Made by a program: the position numbers and the translations under genes | The notes under the pieces: generated by a model | Databases searched by the model: none | Told to the model about the DNA's origin: nothing | The model's input: only the letters and a program-made list of their open reading frames with translations | In this document: positions 15,077 to 42,663 of the stretch, in pieces | Numbering within the stretch: position 1 is the first letter of the stretch | Layout of the letters: each line of letters begins with the position of its first letter | Assembly: GCA_026390835.1 (NCBI GenBank) | Contig: JAPLFD010000016.1 | Location: 1-64,000 of the forward strand | Length of the DNA: 64,000 nt | From: Sphingobacteriales bacterium | Lineage (GTDB): Bacteria > Bacteroidota > Bacteroidia > Sphingobacteriales > Sphingobacteriaceae | Direction: 5' to 3'

Positions 15077-15161
15077 ATATACCCCGAATAATTATTTGGA
15101 GGCCTTAAGATACAGACAAAATATGTGGTTTTTTGTTAAAAATACTAAAATTAGCTAGCTG

Positions 15162-16145
15162 CTATAATCCGGGGTTCAGCAAAATGTCTTTTAGCTGGAT
15201 ATACTCTGTGCTGTATTGAACTACCTTATCGGCATTACCCAGGGCTGTATATGTTTGTTCGAGTTTATATTTCAGCAACAATAACAAAGGTAACTCATGA
15301 GCTTGAATGGCTACCCATTCAGCAGCACGCAAGTCTTTAATGGCGGGCTCAAAATCAGTTAACGCACATTTAAAATCTGCCAAAGCGATGTTAGCTAAAA
15401 TGATTCCTCTAGCATCGTTTTTTTGTTTAGCTAGTGTTAACGATTGTAAATAAAACCACTTGGCTTGCACAAATAATTCCTGAACTTCATAGGCATAGGC
15501 CAATTCTCTATAACATAAAATAAGTGGGCCTTTATCTTTTAATTTACTCACTAAAGGCAAGGCATTTTTTAACAAATAGGCTTCTGCAAGTACACCATCA
15601 CCTTGTTCGGAAGCAAGCTTACCCAATTGAATGTATGTTTGTGCCTTAAGTATTGTACTGTTCGTGGTAATGGCACTAGCTAAAATTTGTTTTTGATAGC
15701 CAATTGCTTGGGTATAGTGGCCCTTTAACGCATATAAACTACTCAGTTGCGTGGCAAGGCCACTGCTTAAAGACGAAACATTTTTCACAATATTCCAGGT
15801 TGCTAGGTTTTCAAATAAACTGATACTGGCGTCTATATTCCCGGCTAAGGCGTGATGAAAGGCAGCATTAAGCTTGGTTTGTTGGGCAACATTCCAGTTC
15901 GTACTAATGGCTTTAAATTCCTGATTAAATTGGTTGGTTTGAGTAATAAACTCGGTGCGTTTTAAGTAATTTTGAACATCAACCGGATCGGTATCTAAAC
16001 CCACTCGTAATAAGAAATAAGATTTTAAACCCGTGGTATGGGTAGAATCCGATTTATTTTGTGCGGATATCCTTGAAGGCATCAACAAAAAACCCAGTAA
16101 TACAAAGTTTAGTATAAAGCTATAGTTGTTTGTTGGTCTTTTCAT
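15162..16145 (-). CDS. Secreted TPR-repeat protein, unknown function (327 aa)
   Basis: Starts MKRPTNNYSFILNFVLLGFL and continues to a signal-peptide end at SRISAQ. The frame is open upstream to 16277, but that would overlap rarA on the other strand and lacks a signal start, so 16145 is preferred. The mature part is all helical, with repeated Ala/Leu/Tyr-rich units (for example LASEQGDGVLAEAYLLKNAL and YAYEVQELFVQAKWFYLQSL), typical of tetratricopeptide repeats at about 110-310. It probably acts as a periplasmic scaffold; resemblance to the N-terminal TPR sensor part of Bacteroidota kinases is possible, but no kinase domain is attached. Confidence 0.75.
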   Translation of the reverse strand: MKRPTNNYSFILNFVLLGFLLMPSRISAQNKSDSTHTTGLKSYFLLRVGLDTDPVDVQNYLKRTEFITQTNQFNQEFKAISTNWNVAQQTKLNAAFHHALAGNIDASISLFENLATWNIVKNVSSLSSGLATQLSSLYALKGHYTQAIGYQKQILASAITTNSTILKAQTYIQLGKLASEQGDGVLAEAYLLKNALPLVSKLKDKGPLILCYRELAYAYEVQELFVQAKWFYLQSLTLAKQKNDARGIILANIALADFKCALTDFEPAIKDLRAAEWVAIQAHELPLLLLLKYKLEQTYTALGNADKVVQYSTEYIQLKDILLNPGL

Positions 16146-16198
16146 AGGGTGTACGGTATTACTACGTGGTAATTTACTATTAAATTTTAACAGCATTT

Positions 16199-16206
16199 TA
16201 AATTTG
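16199..16206 (+). promoter_or_regulatory. -7 box of rarA
   Basis: TAAATTTG, an exact TAnnTTTG match 15 nt before the rarA ATG, in the gap between divergent genes. Confidence 0.5.
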
Positions 16207-16221
16207 ATGATATTGTAGCCT

Positions 16222-19439: not shown

Positions 19440-20510
19440 TTAACTAGGTAAGGGTGAAAGTGGCAATAGCAAGCTGATACATTTTTGTGGCTGGTTAGCC
19501 ACTTTAATAGCATAATCAGATCCATAGTGTATACCAAGTCGGGTATAAATACTTCTTAAACCATAACCAGCAGTAATTTTTGAGGGAAATTTTCCGCCAT
19601 CATCAAAAACCTCTATTTGAATCTTTTCGCCCAGCTTAGCAATTTCTACCCGAATTAAAATATGAGCTTCTTGTGCAGTGGCCAAACCATGTTTAACAGC
19701 ATTTTCTAATAAGGGCTGTACTAAAAATCTAGGAATATTGGCTTTTAATAAGTCGGCATCGCAGGTGAATTCATAATTCAATAATTCACCAAAGCGCACG
19801 TGTTCAATTTCTAAATAGTTTTTAGCAATGTGCAACTCTTCTTGTATGGTAATCCACTGCTCATCATTTACATCATAGCGATAAAGCTGAGCTAAACGCA
19901 TAGTCATATCCTCAGCTTTAGAACTATCTACCTGAATTAAACCTGCAATTGAGTTAAGTGCATTATACAAGAGGTGTGGATTAATTTTAGTTTGAATCGC
20001 TTTTAATCGAGCCTGTTTAGTTAACCGATCTAATTTTAGCACTTCTACATCCTGGCTAACCTCTTTTTTTTGATTTCTAGCTGCCTGGCACTCATACAAC
20101 TGAATACCCAAACAAACCACAAGCGAAGCTAATAAAGTGAGAAAAAGCAATCCTAGATGAGTACTAATAAAAGATATAGAAAAAAATAATGTAGCAGACG
20201 CAAAACCAACTATAACACCCACCAATAGGCCTAGGGTGCTAAAAACATAAAAAGCTAAAATTGGACTTTGATATACAAACTTGGCAAAAGCAGGCAAAGA
20301 AATAGACATGGAAAGCGTATTGGCCATTGTACACAACACAAACACACTTACCCAAAGTACTAAAGCAGATTCAGGTAATTCTATAGGGTTACCCGTAAAA
20401 AGTGTATTGAATAAAATAATGCTATGGCCAACCAACAAGCCCAACAGTAAACCATATAGATTAACGTATTTCCAACCTCCTTCAAAATGTTGTTGTGGAC
20501 TCAAAGGCAA
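19440..20510 (-). CDS. LytS-type sensor histidine kinase (second of a tandem pair)
   Basis: 356 residues with the same plan as its neighbour: four N-terminal helices, coiled linker, TKINPHLLYNALNSIAGL with the phospho-His, and the N-box FLVQPLLENAVKHGL. No ATG begins this frame; the first start is a TTG at 20510 (another TTG at 20504). The segment GGWKYVNLYGLLLG lines up with SSDWRFKYSNALLTG of the sister kinase, so the upstream start is supported. An ATG at 20520 is one frame off. A TATTTTTG box lies at 20538-20531, 20 nt upstream. Kinase assignment is firm, start is not. Confidence 0.83.
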   Translation of the reverse strand: MPLSPQQHFEGGWKYVNLYGLLLGLLVGHSIILFNTLFTGNPIELPESALVLWVSVFVLCTMANTLSMSISLPAFAKFVYQSPILAFYVFSTLGLLVGVIVGFASATLFFSISFISTHLGLLFLTLLASLVVCLGIQLYECQAARNQKKEVSQDVEVLKLDRLTKQARLKAIQTKINPHLLYNALNSIAGLIQVDSSKAEDMTMRLAQLYRYDVNDEQWITIQEELHIAKNYLEIEHVRFGELLNYEFTCDADLLKANIPRFLVQPLLENAVKHGLATAQEAHILIRVEIAKLGEKIQIEVFDDGGKFPSKITAGYGLRSIYTRLGIHYGSDYAIKVANQPQKCISLLLPLSPLPS

Positions 20511-20530
20511 ATAATTTCATTGATGCGATA

Positions 20531-20538
20531 CAAAAATA
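20531..20538 (-). promoter_or_regulatory. -7 box of the twin-kinase/LytTR operon
   Basis: On the minus strand 20538-20531 reads TATTTTTG, an exact TAnnTTTG match, in the AT-rich gap between the kinase operon and the divergent OmpA-like gene. The remainder of that gap (20539-20745) shows only AT-rich sequence. Confidence 0.5.
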
Positions 20539-20745
20539 TAAAATTAAATAATTATTTAATTTATCTTTAATAATATTTCTTTATTTGTTTTAATTATTAA
20601 ACTCAATACCTATTTATACAATCAAAATATAGAGGTGCAGGCTGAAAGGCTTAACACATACAACACACTATTTCTATTTATCGTGCGTTTAGGTTTTGAT
20701 AAGCACCGTGGTGCAATAACTATTTAACCCTTTACACGAAATCTT

Positions 20746-37282: not shown

Positions 37283-40162
37283 TTATTTTTTGTCTGGCTG
37301 TAAAACCAATTGAATCACGTTAGTTCCGCTTAGGTATCTATTGGCGGCGGCTTTTAATGCCTCTGGGCTAATTGCTTTTAGCGCATTTAAGTGATTTAAA
37401 ATTAATTTAGGGTCTTCGTTGTTTTGGTATTGATTTACCATGTAACTCAACCAGAAACTATTTTCTTTTAACTGCACTTCGGTAGAGCGACTTTCTTCGG
37501 CTACAAATTTTTCGATATCTAGTGCTTGAGCACCATTTTTACGAATCTTGGCAATTTCATCTAAAGAAGCTGCTATTAATTTGTCAACATTTTCTGGACC
37601 ACAACCAAAGGCGATGGTAAAACTGTAGCGACCAGTAGGGTATTTGCTGTAATTAAAAAATGCACCCGGGCTGTAAACACCACCCTCATCTTCACGCAGG
37701 CGTTCTATTAATTTAATTTGCAATACCTCTCCAAGGGCATCTAATAGGTTGTTGTTTTCTTCGTTGTAGGTATAATCGCCTGCAAACACTAAACGAACAG
37801 TTGATTTTGGCTCAGAGCCTTTATATACGGTCTTCTTTACTACACCGGCAGGGGCCTTAATGCCCAAATCTTTGGCACTTTCTACTCGTTTTACCGAAGG
37901 CAGTCCGCCTAAATACTGCGCAAGCAGCGGTTTTATTTTCTCTACCTCAAAATTACCTACAAACACATACGTAAAATCGCTGGCATCGGTAAAGCGTTCT
38001 TTGTAAATCTCAAAAGCTCTATCTAAATTAATTTGATCTAGCTTTTGTAAAGTTGGGCCAGTACGGCGGACATTGTAATTACCCAATACTGCAGAAACTG
38101 TATCGCTATACACGTTATTCGGATCGTTTTCTCGGTTTGCCAAGGCGCCTTTTTGCTGTGCCATAAAGCCTTTAAATATTTCAGCGTCTTTACGAGGAGC
38201 GGTGAAATACAGGTAATTTAATTGCAAGGCAGTTTCTAAATCTTTTGGTGACGTAAAACCAGATATACCTTCAGATCGCTCGGTAATGTAGGGCGAAACC
38301 GATACCTTTTTACCGTTTAGCAACTTTGGTAACTGTAATGCGTCAAATTCGCCTAAGCCACTACCACGTACAATACCGGCTGCACTGCTAGCTGATTGAA
38401 AATCGGCATCGCTATATAACGAAGTGCCACCTGGACTGAATGCGGTAAAGTTTATTTCATCGTTTTTAAAATCGGTTGGCTTTAAAATGGCTTTTACTCC
38501 ATTGCTAAATACCAATTCGGTAATGCCCAATTCGGTAGTTTTAGTTTCAGAAACGATAGTTCCGGCTTTTGGCTTGGTAGCTAATAGCGGTTTGTCTGAT
38601 ACTTTATCTACATAAGCCTCAAGGTTTGATGTGGCTACACTTTGTGCCCAAGCATTTACGGTAGCTTCCGTTGGTAAATTGGCTTTATCTTTTTCCGGGC
38701 CCATTACTATAATGTCGCGGTTCTTATCTACAATATATTTTTTAGCCAAGTCATTAACCTCGGCAAGGGTAATTTCGGGCGTTTGTTTTTGCGACAATGT
38801 GTATTCATACGCTATACCCGGAGCGGCTTGCTCCTTTAAGAAATATTGTAAATATTCATTCACATAGGCATCCGATTGTGTTTTATCTTTTTCTTTAAAA
38901 GAAGATTCCACTTGCAACAGGTAGGATTGTTTGGCTCTATCTAATTCTGTTTGGGTATAACCAAATTTCTTAATACGCTCCGACTCGGTAAAAGCAGCCT
39001 TAAATCCTTTTTCCAACTCACCTGGTTTAGCCACCATAAATAAAGTAAAAGCATCTAAGCCGGCTAAGAAACCACTAACGTTACCTCCAGCTTGTAAAAA
39101 GGGAGGATTAGCCTGTTTAGTTAATTCCACAAAACGGGCCTGCATCATCCGGTTAAATAGCGTTTGAATAATGCTGGCTCGGTAATCGGCATCGGTGCGA
39201 ATTACTTGTTCGGGATGTTTAATAATCATTTGTACCACTGTAACCGGAAACTCTTTATCGGTAACAGCAATAAATTGATTGGTACCGCTTAGGGGAATGT
39301 TGTATTGGGTACGCGGTTTTGCTTTAGCTGGCTTTTTTAAATCGGAAAACTGTGCTTTAATTTGTTTTTCTACCGCATCCACATCTATATCGCCAACCAC
39401 AATAAGCGCTTGCAAATCGGGGCGATACCAATCGGTGTAGAATGATTTTATGGTTTCGGGTTTAAAATTCTTCAATACCTCTTCGGTACCAATGGGTAAA
39501 CGATTTGCATATCTTGAACCGTTAAAAATTACTGGCAAATATTGTTGTTGCATACGTTGTGCAGCACCTTTTCCTAAGCGTTTTTCTTCTAAAACTACAC
39601 CTCGTTCTTTGTTAATTTCATCCACGTCTAGTGTAGCATCTTGCGCCCAATCACGCATAATTTGCATGCCGTTTTTAAACACTTCAGGGTCGTCGGTTGG
39701 TATAGGTAATTGATATACCGTTTCATCAAAACTGGTGTATGCATTTAAATCGGCACCAAAACGAACACCGGCTTTTTGTAAATAACCAACTAAATCGTTT
39801 TTGGGATAATTCTTGGTTCCATTAAAGCTCATGTGCTCCATAAAGTGAGCCAAGCCTTGTTGGTCATCGTTCTCTAAAATAGAACCTACTTTATTAGCTA
39901 AATAGAGGGTTGCTCTATTTTTAGGCTCTACATTTTTTCGGATATAGTAAGTAAAGCCATTGGCTAAACGGCCAGTTTTTACATTGGGGTCTAGTGGTAA
40001 AATTTGGCTAGGGGCGTTGGGCAGATTTGCTGAGGGGTCTAGTGGTAAAATTTGGCTAGGGGCGCTGGCCTTATTTGGTGAGTACTTTTTCTTTTGAGCC
40101 TGAGCGGTTAACGTTAGCGCAACCAGGGCGGCTAAAACATAAATTTTAAGTGTGCTTTTCAT
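37283..40162 (-). CDS. M16 family zinc metallopeptidase (959 aa, secreted)
   Basis: Signal peptide MKSTLKIYVLAALVALTLTAQAQ. The first M16 domain has the inverted zinc motif HFMEHMSFNG (HxxEH) and the downstream Glu in EEKRLGKG. The second M16 domain (about 530-955) lacks the motif, as usual for the two-domain pitrilysin type of Bacteroidota. It cleaves peptides in the periplasm or at the surface. An exact duplication of the stretch APSQILPLDP sits between the signal peptide and the first domain (two copies, period 16 residues). Transcribed alone. Confidence 0.92.
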   Translation of the reverse strand: MKSTLKIYVLAALVALTLTAQAQKKKYSPNKASAPSQILPLDPSANLPNAPSQILPLDPNVKTGRLANGFTYYIRKNVEPKNRATLYLANKVGSILENDDQQGLAHFMEHMSFNGTKNYPKNDLVGYLQKAGVRFGADLNAYTSFDETVYQLPIPTDDPEVFKNGMQIMRDWAQDATLDVDEINKERGVVLEEKRLGKGAAQRMQQQYLPVIFNGSRYANRLPIGTEEVLKNFKPETIKSFYTDWYRPDLQALIVVGDIDVDAVEKQIKAQFSDLKKPAKAKPRTQYNIPLSGTNQFIAVTDKEFPVTVVQMIIKHPEQVIRTDADYRASIIQTLFNRMMQARFVELTKQANPPFLQAGGNVSGFLAGLDAFTLFMVAKPGELEKGFKAAFTESERIKKFGYTQTELDRAKQSYLLQVESSFKEKDKTQSDAYVNEYLQYFLKEQAAPGIAYEYTLSQKQTPEITLAEVNDLAKKYIVDKNRDIIVMGPEKDKANLPTEATVNAWAQSVATSNLEAYVDKVSDKPLLATKPKAGTIVSETKTTELGITELVFSNGVKAILKPTDFKNDEINFTAFSPGGTSLYSDADFQSASSAAGIVRGSGLGEFDALQLPKLLNGKKVSVSPYITERSEGISGFTSPKDLETALQLNYLYFTAPRKDAEIFKGFMAQQKGALANRENDPNNVYSDTVSAVLGNYNVRRTGPTLQKLDQINLDRAFEIYKERFTDASDFTYVFVGNFEVEKIKPLLAQYLGGLPSVKRVESAKDLGIKAPAGVVKKTVYKGSEPKSTVRLVFAGDYTYNEENNNLLDALGEVLQIKLIERLREDEGGVYSPGAFFNYSKYPTGRYSFTIAFGCGPENVDKLIAASLDEIAKIRKNGAQALDIEKFVAEESRSTEVQLKENSFWLSYMVNQYQNNEDPKLILNHLNALKAISPEALKAAANRYLSGTNVIQLVLQPDKK
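39986..40064. repeat. 31-bp direct repeat inside the M16 gene
   Basis: Identical 31-bp copies at 39986-40016 and 40034-40064 (start to start 48 bp, a multiple of three). They encode the repeated APSQILPLDP linker. The identity suggests recent slippage or gene conversion. Confidence 0.9.
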
Positions 40163-40283: not shown

Positions 40284-41462
40284 ATGAATAAAAACCTAAC
40301 CAAGCTTTTCAGTATTTGCCAAAAACCTGAGCGTAGCATTTTGGGCTTAATGTCGGGCACTTCGCTCGATGGATTGGATATGGCCCTGTGTACCATAAAG
40401 GGCTCTGGCAGAGAAACTCAGGTAGAACTAGAACGCTTTAAAACTAGCCCTTATACGGATGTATTTAAGGCGCATATTCGTGCGGTTTTTGCAAAGCAAC
40501 AAGTCGATTTACAAACACTAACCCTCTTACATGGTGCCATTGCACAAGAGCATGCCAATTTGGTACTGGCTACTTTGACTGAGTGGAACATACAGCCTTC
40601 GGAAGTGGATGTATTGGCCAGCCACGGGCAAACGGTGTACCACGCTCCAGCACATTTTCATCAAAACCCAGACTTTGGAAACGCCACCTTACAACTGGGC
40701 GACGGGGACCATTTAGCGGTAAAAACGGGTATACTTACCCTCAGCGATTTTAGGCAAAAACACATTGCTTTTGGAGGAGAAGGTGCGCCACTGGTTCCTT
40801 ATGGCGATTATTTACTATACAGCAGTTCCACCGAGCATCGTATTTTGTTGAACTTGGGCGGAATTGCCAATTTTACATATTTGGCTAGGAATGGTCAATC
40901 GGAGGATGTAGTAGCCAGTGATCTTGGACCAGCAAACACCCTTATAGACCAGGTGGTAAAAAAAGAATTCGGGAAAGAGTATGATGAAGATGGGGCATTG
41001 GCTCAATCGGGTACGGTAAACAAGGCGGTATTGGATGCGCTCATGCAATTGCCTTTTATTAAAGCGCCTTTACCAAAATCTACCGGCCCTGAATTGTTTA
41101 ATTTAGAAAGCTTGAACGAGCTACTAAGCCAACATGCTATAAGCATAGCACCCCTTGATTTATTGGCTACGCTTACCCAATTTACCGCAACTGCTATTGC
41201 CCAACAACTACAGCCATTCATCCACAAAAATACGAGTATATACTGCAGTGGTGGTGGAGTTCGAAATACCTACTTCATGCGTTTGCTTCAGCAAGCCATT
41301 CCGGATACCCCCATTAAAACGGTGGAAGATCTGGGGATAAAATCGGAAGCGAAAGAAGCGGTTTTATTTGCCGTATTGGCCAACGAAACGCTAGTGGGTA
41401 ATCCCTTTGCATTGGGAACTATGCCTGCCCTAAGCATGGGGAAATTGAGTTTTCCTAGTTAG
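40284..41462 (+). CDS. anmK: Anhydro-N-acetylmuramic acid kinase
   Basis: 392 residues from the ATG at 40284 (an in-frame ATG at 40260 lies ahead of the box). The ATP-binding motif is ILGLMSGTSLDGLDMAL; also DVLASHGQTVYHAPA, LNLGGIANFTYL, DLGPANTLID and the C-terminal YCSGGGVRNTYFMRLL. Phosphorylates anhydro-MurNAc released in cell-wall turnover. The GH3 hexosaminidase at 3862 is a possible partner in that pathway. The gene-poor repeat stretch follows directly. Confidence 0.95.
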   Translation: MNKNLTKLFSICQKPERSILGLMSGTSLDGLDMALCTIKGSGRETQVELERFKTSPYTDVFKAHIRAVFAKQQVDLQTLTLLHGAIAQEHANLVLATLTEWNIQPSEVDVLASHGQTVYHAPAHFHQNPDFGNATLQLGDGDHLAVKTGILTLSDFRQKHIAFGGEGAPLVPYGDYLLYSSSTEHRILLNLGGIANFTYLARNGQSEDVVASDLGPANTLIDQVVKKEFGKEYDEDGALAQSGTVNKAVLDALMQLPFIKAPLPKSTGPELFNLESLNELLSQHAISIAPLDLLATLTQFTATAIAQQLQPFIHKNTSIYCSGGGVRNTYFMRLLQQAIPDTPIKTVEDLGIKSEAKEAVLFAVLANETLVGNPFALGTMPALSMGKLSFPS

Positions 41463-41480
41463 GTGATGTTTGGGGTTCCT

Positions 41481-41652
41481 TTTTGCTTAATCAAAATTAT
41501 TCAATCTTCTTCCTTTTGCTTGACCAAAAGGAAGCAAAACTCAAGGCAGAACGATGCTTCTGCCCACAGGCCTTTACCTTGGCCCGCCGTTCTGCCGGGC
41601 CTGGCTTTTTTTTCGTTTTTTTCTTTTTGTCATCCTGAGCTTGTCGAAGGAT
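41481..41652. repeat. Cluster of hairpins and REP-like motifs after anmK
   Basis: Four inverted repeats follow in order: TTTTG/CAAAA (41481-41496, loop CTTAAT); CTTCCTTTTG/CAAAAGGAAG (41509-41534, loop CTTGAC); GGCAGAA/TTCTGCC (41545-41564); GGCCCG/CGGGCC (41581-41601), followed by eight T. Then comes ATCCTGAGCTTGTCGAAGGAT (ends ATCCT/AGGAT, 41632-41652), a motif type that recurs as a palindromic repeat in many genomes. The first two loops are near copies (CTTAAT, CTTGAC). An open frame crosses the block but looks accidental. Confidence 0.75.
41581..41613 (+). terminator. Terminator-like hairpin within the repeat cluster
   Basis: GGCCCG (41581-41586), 9-nt loop, CGGGCC (41596-41601), TGGC, then a run of T to 41613. 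It may end anmK transcription, or be part of a mobile repeat. Confidence 0.55.
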
Positions 41653-41677
41653 TTGGCAAACCGCTTTTAAGCAGTTG

Positions 41678-41908
41678 CATCGGCGCAGTAGCGGGTTGCA
41701 CTGCCACAGTTACAAGTTTCATCAGCGCAGTAGCGGGTTGCACTGCCACAGTAAGAGTTTACACTGCCACAGTTACAAGTTTCATCAGCGCAGTAAGACA
41801 TTACACTGCCACAGTTACAAGGTTCATTGGCGCAGTGAGGTATTGCACTGCCACAGTAAGGAGTTTCATCGGCGCAGCAGCGGTTTACACTAACAAAGTA
41901 AGCATGTA
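41678..41908. repeat. Tandem array of 42-bp units
   Basis: Units start at 41678 (42 nt), 41720 (41 nt), then a 22-nt half unit at 41761, then 41783 (42), 41825 (42), and a degenerate last copy at 41867-41908. Each unit runs CATCGGCGCAGTAGCGGGTT, then GCACTGCCACAGTTACAAG and a TT-rich end, with changes mainly in the middle. No unique spacers lie between units, so it is not CRISPR. As 42 is a multiple of three, frames stay open across it, which explains the apparent Cys/His/Ser-rich reading frames. Confidence 0.85.
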
Positions 41909-42150
41909 GGCTATATTTTTAGTTTTCTTCGCTTTTTGGGTGAAGGGAATGCTGCTGAATGGCTAAATACGTATAGGGAATGGGGGCTGCTTTTAAATAT
42001 GTTCTGAAAGGTATAGCTAATAAATAAATTGGATTAAGCCCCCTAAACCCTATGTTAGAGGTGCGCTAAGCTAACACCGCCAAGGGCAAAAACCTACGAT
42101 TTCTCCAACTAAAAAAGCCTGCTAAAAACAGCTACATATTGCTATCAATG
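41909..42150. other. Intergenic DNA without recognisable content
   Basis: About 240 nt, AT-rich, with stops in all frames and no hairpin followed by a T-run. I see no gene, RNA or binding site here. Confidence 0.5.
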
Positions 42151-42383: not shown

Positions 42384-42384
42384 G

Positions 42385-42537
42385 CTAATCGTCTGCGGCC
42401 TTTGCCGAAGCACCATCGGTATACTCACCGGCTCTCGAATAGACATTTCTGCGTATTAGGGGTACGTGTAGGATTTGATACAACTCGTCTAATCCGAGTA
42501 AACTGCCATTGCTTAGGTTGCTCAAAAACAATGTCCA
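42385..42537 (-). pseudogene. Possible remnant of a coding sequence (C-terminal 50 codons)
   Basis: On the minus strand a frame runs from a TAA at 42540-42538 to a TAG at 42387-42385 with no start codon. Its 50 residues look protein-like (LSNGSLLGLDELYQILHVPL, then RRNVYSRAGEYTDG). I do not recognise a family. It may be the tail of a lost gene or chance. Nothing else is visible between 42538 and 42663. Confidence 0.25.
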
Positions 42538-42663
42538 TTAGGGCCCAAGAAGAAAAACGCCTAGTATAGGGGTGTGAAAATTAGAAATAATTGGAGGTAA
42601 AAATCGAAAAGGATTTTGAACATTTTAGACCTCCGCTAATCGTGCGTTTGGAATAAAAAAAGT

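Follow-up and report, generated by a model that had tools for sequence, protein, structure and literature searches.

A dispersed intergenic repeat of Bacteroidota with a predicted pseudoknot head, inserted downstream of anmK and adjoined by a 21-bp satellite

Which kind of sequence fills the space behind anmK in this Sphingobacteriales genome, and how did it come to lie there? The window, i.e., the whole stretch of 64,000 nucleotides analysed here, belongs to a genome (G000) of 1.46 Mb that is 88% complete, and the genomes of its genus (G000-G005) are mostly fragmented drafts, with G002 and G003 being about 99% complete. The anmK stop codon ends at 41462 and a block of repeats begins right after it. 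Approximately 640 bp of extra DNA separate anmK from the next gene in G000, whereas the same two genes are only about 55-110 bp apart in the sister species G003, whose AnmK is 85% identical, and in the congeners G002, G004, and G005. As all four congeners compared have this short gap, the DNA from 41463 to approximately 42108 is extra in G000 and constitutes an insertion in this lineage. A degenerate hairpin, a core of approximately 100 nt, a T-run, the palindrome GTCATCCTGAGCTTGTCGAAGGAT and a tandem array reaching to about 41908 follow anmK in this order. The right part of the insert, about 200 bp (41910-42108), is unique sequence within G000 and was rejected as a part of the element, as there is no second copy in the genome. 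The initial annotation was borne out in that the block, its hairpins, its array and its dispersal are real, but not in the unit length, in the independence of the hairpins and in the claim that this is the only gene-poor stretch, as further gaps of more than 1 kb between open reading frames of at least 120 aa are located at 15077-16221 and 19538-20745. The features of the insertion are the following:

41463-42108, no strand assigned: whole insertion, bordered on the left by the anmK stop and on the right by CTAAAAAAGC; empty site in the sister species G003 and in the congeners G002, G004, and G005
41480-41506, plus strand: lone, degenerate P1 hairpin copy, TTTTTGCTTAATCAAAATTATTCAATC; matching context at C17:130103-130162
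41509-41534, plus strand: predicted P1 stem of 10 bp with the loop CTTGAC (41519-41524); covariation in 22 copies
41541-41545, plus strand: TCAAG, predicted pseudoknot partner of the loop CTTGA (41519-41523), preceded by the linker CAAAAC
41546-41595, plus strand: predicted P3 stem, GCAGAACG (41546-41553) with CGTTCTGC (41588-41595); covariation
41569-41584, plus strand: predicted P4 stem GGCC/GGCC inside P3; weak covariation
41606-41613, plus strand: T-run 3′ of the core, terminator-like by its sequence
41629-41652, no strand assigned: dispersed palindromic module GTCATCCTGAGCTTGTCGAAGGAT; copies at other G000 loci
41664-41908, no strand assigned: 21-bp satellite of type A1 with alternating units CACTGCCACAGT... 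and CATCGGCGCAGT...; lag-21 autocorrelation without indels

Two further irregularities are found in the surroundings. Near the inserted block a serine hydrolase remnant (42384-42580) retains only both gene ends, about 1 kb of the interior being gone, and its counterpart in G003 is intact with 402 aa. The M16 peptidase gene has a 48-bp tandem duplication near its start (39986-40082).

The hairpin row spans 41480-41652 and contains the two near-identical loops (GCTTAATC and GCTTGACC) that had been annotated; its members do not, however, represent five unconnected palindromes. Those in the middle are parts of a single structured core of approximately 100 nt (41505-41606) with a predicted pseudoknot. 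The hairpin at 41629-41652 is a dispersed palindrome in its own right, and the first hairpin is a degenerate extra P1, whose context is 95% identical to C17:130103-130162 with the trailing ATTATTCAATC included. The palindrome GTCATCCTGAGCTTGTCGAAGGAT recurs beside cores at several G000 loci and a variant at C15:38856 occurs without a core. The T-run was seen only in the genus of the window and is unconserved in other families. Single-molecule folding of two stretches of the block was no better than that of shuffles (z -0.79 and +1.11); single-copy folding is uninformative here and the evidence for the predicted structure is comparative throughout. When 22 core copies of the genus and family are aligned, pairing in the proposed helices amounts to 95%, and it falls to 49-57% if the partner strand is slid by one column. 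Double-sided changes are present at 12 pairs, a number reached by none of 500 shuffles. P1 shows changes on both sides at seven of its ten pairs. P3, which directly follows the pseudoknot partner, shows them at four of eight pairs with 98% of the cells paired (variants include GGCAGAACG/CGTTCTGCC versus GACCAAACG/CGTTTGGTC), and P4 is 83% paired with weak covariation.

The P1 loop, which reads CTTGAY in the genus/family alignment, is complementary to the hexamer just 5′ of P3 across a short A-rich linker. This pairing is nearly invariant inside the genus, where covariation gives it no support. For the phylum a search pattern was used that left the sixth pseudoknot position free, and in the 126 copies retrieved the sixth pair is Watson-Crick in 124 (TA 75, CG 33, AT 16; CA 2), compared to a mean of 57 and a maximum of 73 matches out of 126 for shuffled partners, the 126 copies not being 126 independent events as they are related to one another. 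Furthermore, matches of a model without the pseudoknot revealed approximately four lineages in which both sides are changed (CTTGGC/GCCAAG, CGGGAC/GTCCTG, TTGTCC/GGACAA, and TGCCC/GGGCA). The predicted loop-linker pseudoknot was thereby shown to covary across the phylum. In the window copy the sixth pair is lost (C/C, unpaired), as it is in several relatives within its genus. Mismatches in P1 comprise 30 AC versus 6 GT, most of them at a single position that recurs across many species; as an AC mismatch corresponds to G-U on the other strand, this is a hint that the opposite strand might be the folded one. Covariation by itself fits an RNA and a single-stranded DNA fold alike.

The search of the whole genome and of related genomes proposed in the initial annotation revealed about 16 other core copies and two further arrays of the sequence type of the window array in G000. 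The core model matches 79 of 297 sampled Bacteroidota genomes, and the exact head pattern matched at least 120 stretches from GTDB species. Among the head-pattern matches listed, nearly all belong to Bacteroidota or Balneolota, including Parabacteroides, Tannerella, Pedobacter, Mucilaginibacter, Fodinibius, and others, and a few come from Propionigenium and Natroniella. The block is thus not the single copy without relatives that would have suggested a merely local expansion, as copies exist in G000 and across the phylum. An association with viruses was rejected, with just 2 matches in 2.9 million viral contigs. The 3′ domain beyond the head varies by lineage and extends the element up to approximately 260 bp in one Bacteroidales genome, which encodes four near-identical copies of this length with flanks unlike one another. 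Copy number differs strongly between close relatives, core copies are truncated at either end and some copies are arranged in plus/minus pairs (stretches L065 and L076). No Rfam family matched above its gathering score, the core giving only sub-threshold matches, and in open-licence papers no description was found by sequence or by topic. The element is apparently an undescribed repeat family for which no published name was found. Near the C16 cores the DUF805 RNA (RF03081) is present well above its gathering score (L042:2395-2464).

The tandem array had been described as about five 42-bp units, one of them partial; it is real, with conserved and variable parts as annotated, but its true unit is 21 bp and the window array (approximately 41664-41908) comprises roughly 11 units. 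Identity at lag 21 is 0.54 compared to about 0.25 at lags 20 and 22, and the impression of 42 bp arises because two 21-bp unit types alternate. CRISPR was ruled out, in line with the earlier remark on missing unique spacers, as the units are head-to-tail without spacers. Eight arrays were found in G000, with about 8-18 units each, all directly beside a core, so that the satellite adjoins 8 of about 12 core loci. The units have diverged substantially, yet they are spaced at 21 bp with almost no indels. No intergenic 21-bp array was found in 320 kb of core-free contigs or in the remaining window, and four weak lag-21 signals in core-free sequence resemble low-complexity coding sequence. The orthologous array at locus C9 has about 13 units in G000 and about 5 in G003. 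A mixed 21-bp array in G003 lies without an adjacent core; it suggests that the three satellite sequence types may be one evolving family. The lack of a core beside this array, together with the different orientations that the array types take relative to the core, means that satellite and core do not form a fixed unit. Unrelated 21-, 22- and 42-bp arrays adjoin heads in a few other genomes. A coding array of peptides with 7-residue periodicity was rejected, since several frames are open on both strands and no family was matched; for the 148-aa ORF no conserved product was found, with only a sub-threshold Glug match (14.6 versus 20.5 bits). Another A-rich repeat of about 21 bp, similar to AAAATAAAAACCACCATCCCC, occurs near cores of the genus (L041 4895-4950, L152 on the reverse strand at approximately 2290-2440, and L054).

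The copies in G000 are of mixed age, as the loci C9, C12, C16, and C18b are common to G000 and G003 and the G003 counterparts of the core loci C17 and C18 lack a core; the additional kilobase of G000 at C17 also carries one more gene. Terminal inverted repeats were found neither around the composite nor at the ends of the near-identical copies. No clear target duplication was seen at C9 or at the window locus, where comparison of the borders CCTAGTTAG and CCAACTAA with the empty-site sequence CCGAGCTAA did not demonstrate one. A direct duplication of approximately 61 bp, taken from around the start of the adjacent gene, flanks core and satellite at G000:C9:147000-149600 (L043), also in G003; long flanking duplications as a rule were rejected, as they were found at this locus only. 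The element could not be linked with any transposase, integrase or reverse transcriptase. Gene order near the cores at C12:1-7500 (L041) differs from that of G003 (L152), which suggests recombination among repeats: a monooxygenase gene that is flanked by cores in G000 occupies the place of another G000 core in G003. In G003 this core-rich region also contains a duplication of the 3′ end of a gene resembling umuC. Integron-like cassette arrays, considered for the regular spacing of matches (about 300 bp) in G164 and others, were rejected as its source, as the spacing reflects mixed palindromic modules between ordinary genes; in the comparison with integron attC sites, both the core-rich C12:1-7500 and the G164 cluster contain ordinary chromosomal genes.

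Orientation relative to genes was scored for 87 placed copies, using simple ORF calls that make distances rough. In co-directional gaps the element points with both genes in 23 cases and against both in 30, and a further 23 copies lie in convergent and 11 in divergent gaps. A fixed strand relative to the neighbouring gene, as for an intrinsic terminator or a 5′ leader, was not found among these copies. As the orientation is random, the element behaves like a dispersed one and unlike a leader or a terminator. One copy stands out. Located 5′ of a gene named lpxH by sequence resemblance, it is preserved in G002-G005, where the part from TCAAG to P3 is 81-96% identical, and both the spacer to lpxH (24-71%) and the lpxH start (63-80%) are below this. 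It retains its own P3, GACAAAACG, and thus was not homogenised by other copies. This conservation sits uneasily with a purely selfish or a purely neutral repeat, and a few old copies such as this one may, with less certainty, have been kept by selection.

These results can be weighed against several explanations. The element might be a host-functional structured non-coding RNA, an sRNA or cis-acting, that is multicopy by chance and whose pseudoknot binds a protein or a ligand. The covariation including the pseudoknot, which the initial annotation had missed when it proposed a structured RNA, the conservation of the lpxH copy above its surroundings in four species with a P3 that was not homogenised, and the recurrent C-A mismatch in P1, which hints, albeit dominated by a single position, at an opposite-strand RNA, are in agreement with this. 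H-type pseudoknots of small structured RNAs, such as the preQ1 riboswitch and the pistol ribozyme, likewise pair a hairpin loop with sequence past an A-rich linker; the present element differs in being dispersed, in lacking an Rfam match and in having no consistent downstream gene. With the strand bias to genes absent, no Rfam family matched, copy number highly variable among close relatives and copies truncated at either end, we regard a host RNA as unlikely. That the copies result from local decay or expansion without function, i.e., from junk repeats that share a hot spot and spread by homologous recombination only, fits their mosaic and truncated modules and the rearranged gene order near cores. 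For the core this is hardly credible, as compensatory changes indicate that the fold is under selection, a strong counterargument, and as the lpxH copy is conserved; limited to the satellite, such a reading may apply.

REP and REPIN elements mobilised by RAYT (Y1) transposases are likewise short palindromic intergenic repeats with many copies, sometimes paired (PMC3116915; PMC3733652; PMC6006769), as seen here in L065 and L076, and the published class has been described only as atypical. The present element is approximately 100-260 nt long compared to 20-40 nt, shows no GTAG or CGTC tag and has a P1 foot of the TGTTAC/TGTTCC type in the phylum. A search of the genus did not reveal the REP-type transposase that the initial annotation had named as potential support: Y1/RAYT (PF01797) matches are absent from all six congeners, of which G000 is 88% and two are about 99% complete. 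The RAYT association suggested by PMC6006769 was likewise rejected around Y1 genes elsewhere, as a clear P1-pseudoknot head lies within about 0.5 kb of the match in only 1 of 20 stretches and different palindromes flank the gene at others. We consider such an origin improbable. The palindromes on the flanks of RAYT-like Y1 genes of Bacteroidota (L310, L317, L319, and L320), among them GGGATTACAAATCCC and GCAGGGTCTCTCGCAGAGGACCCTGC, are possible cognate REPs. BrickBuilt, a MITE with a 23-nt minisatellite in Porphyromonas gingivalis, has about 19 copies and an array of variable length; it has IS5-like terminal inverted repeats plus a tail and occurs only in P. gingivalis and P. gulae (PMC4596501). 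A comparable MITE of a DDE transposon would share with the present element the phylum, the intergenic location, a similar copy number and a leader that precedes a short tandem array of variable length with units of about 21-23 bp. Such a MITE is even less probable, since no terminal inverted repeats were found, the internal fold covaries across the phylum, and the array, with its 21-bp unit, is separable from the core.

The preferred reading, to which we assign a probability of about 0.6, is that the block was inserted between genes and has at its centre one copy of a dispersed, non-autonomous, pseudoknot-headed repeat that is widespread in Bacteroidota and gathers other repeats. Of the earlier interpretations, which were supported in part, a non-autonomous repeat element and a REP/palindrome cluster that collected further repeats fit best, given the many copies, the empty site and the nested repeat types. 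The fold, as RNA or as single-stranded DNA, would be recognised by a trans-acting enzyme that copies or moves the element. After its insertion into a permissive intergenic site, the element could serve as a landing spot and recombination substrate for other short repeats including the 21-bp satellite, which might then expand and contract via unit slippage or unequal recombination. A broader proposal, to which we give slightly less than even odds, is a phylum-wide family of mobile nucleic acids with an invariant H-type pseudoknot that spreads by reading of its fold instead of terminal repeats and is occasionally domesticated, as before lpxH. If true, a common intergenic repeat of the Bacteroidota, which are abundant in gut, soil, and water, would be a conserved pseudoknot missing from Rfam. 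Selection of a dispersed element for its three-dimensional shape could then be tested directly, and one could ask in the same system why the satellites that arise beside it have a period of exactly two helical turns (21 bp).
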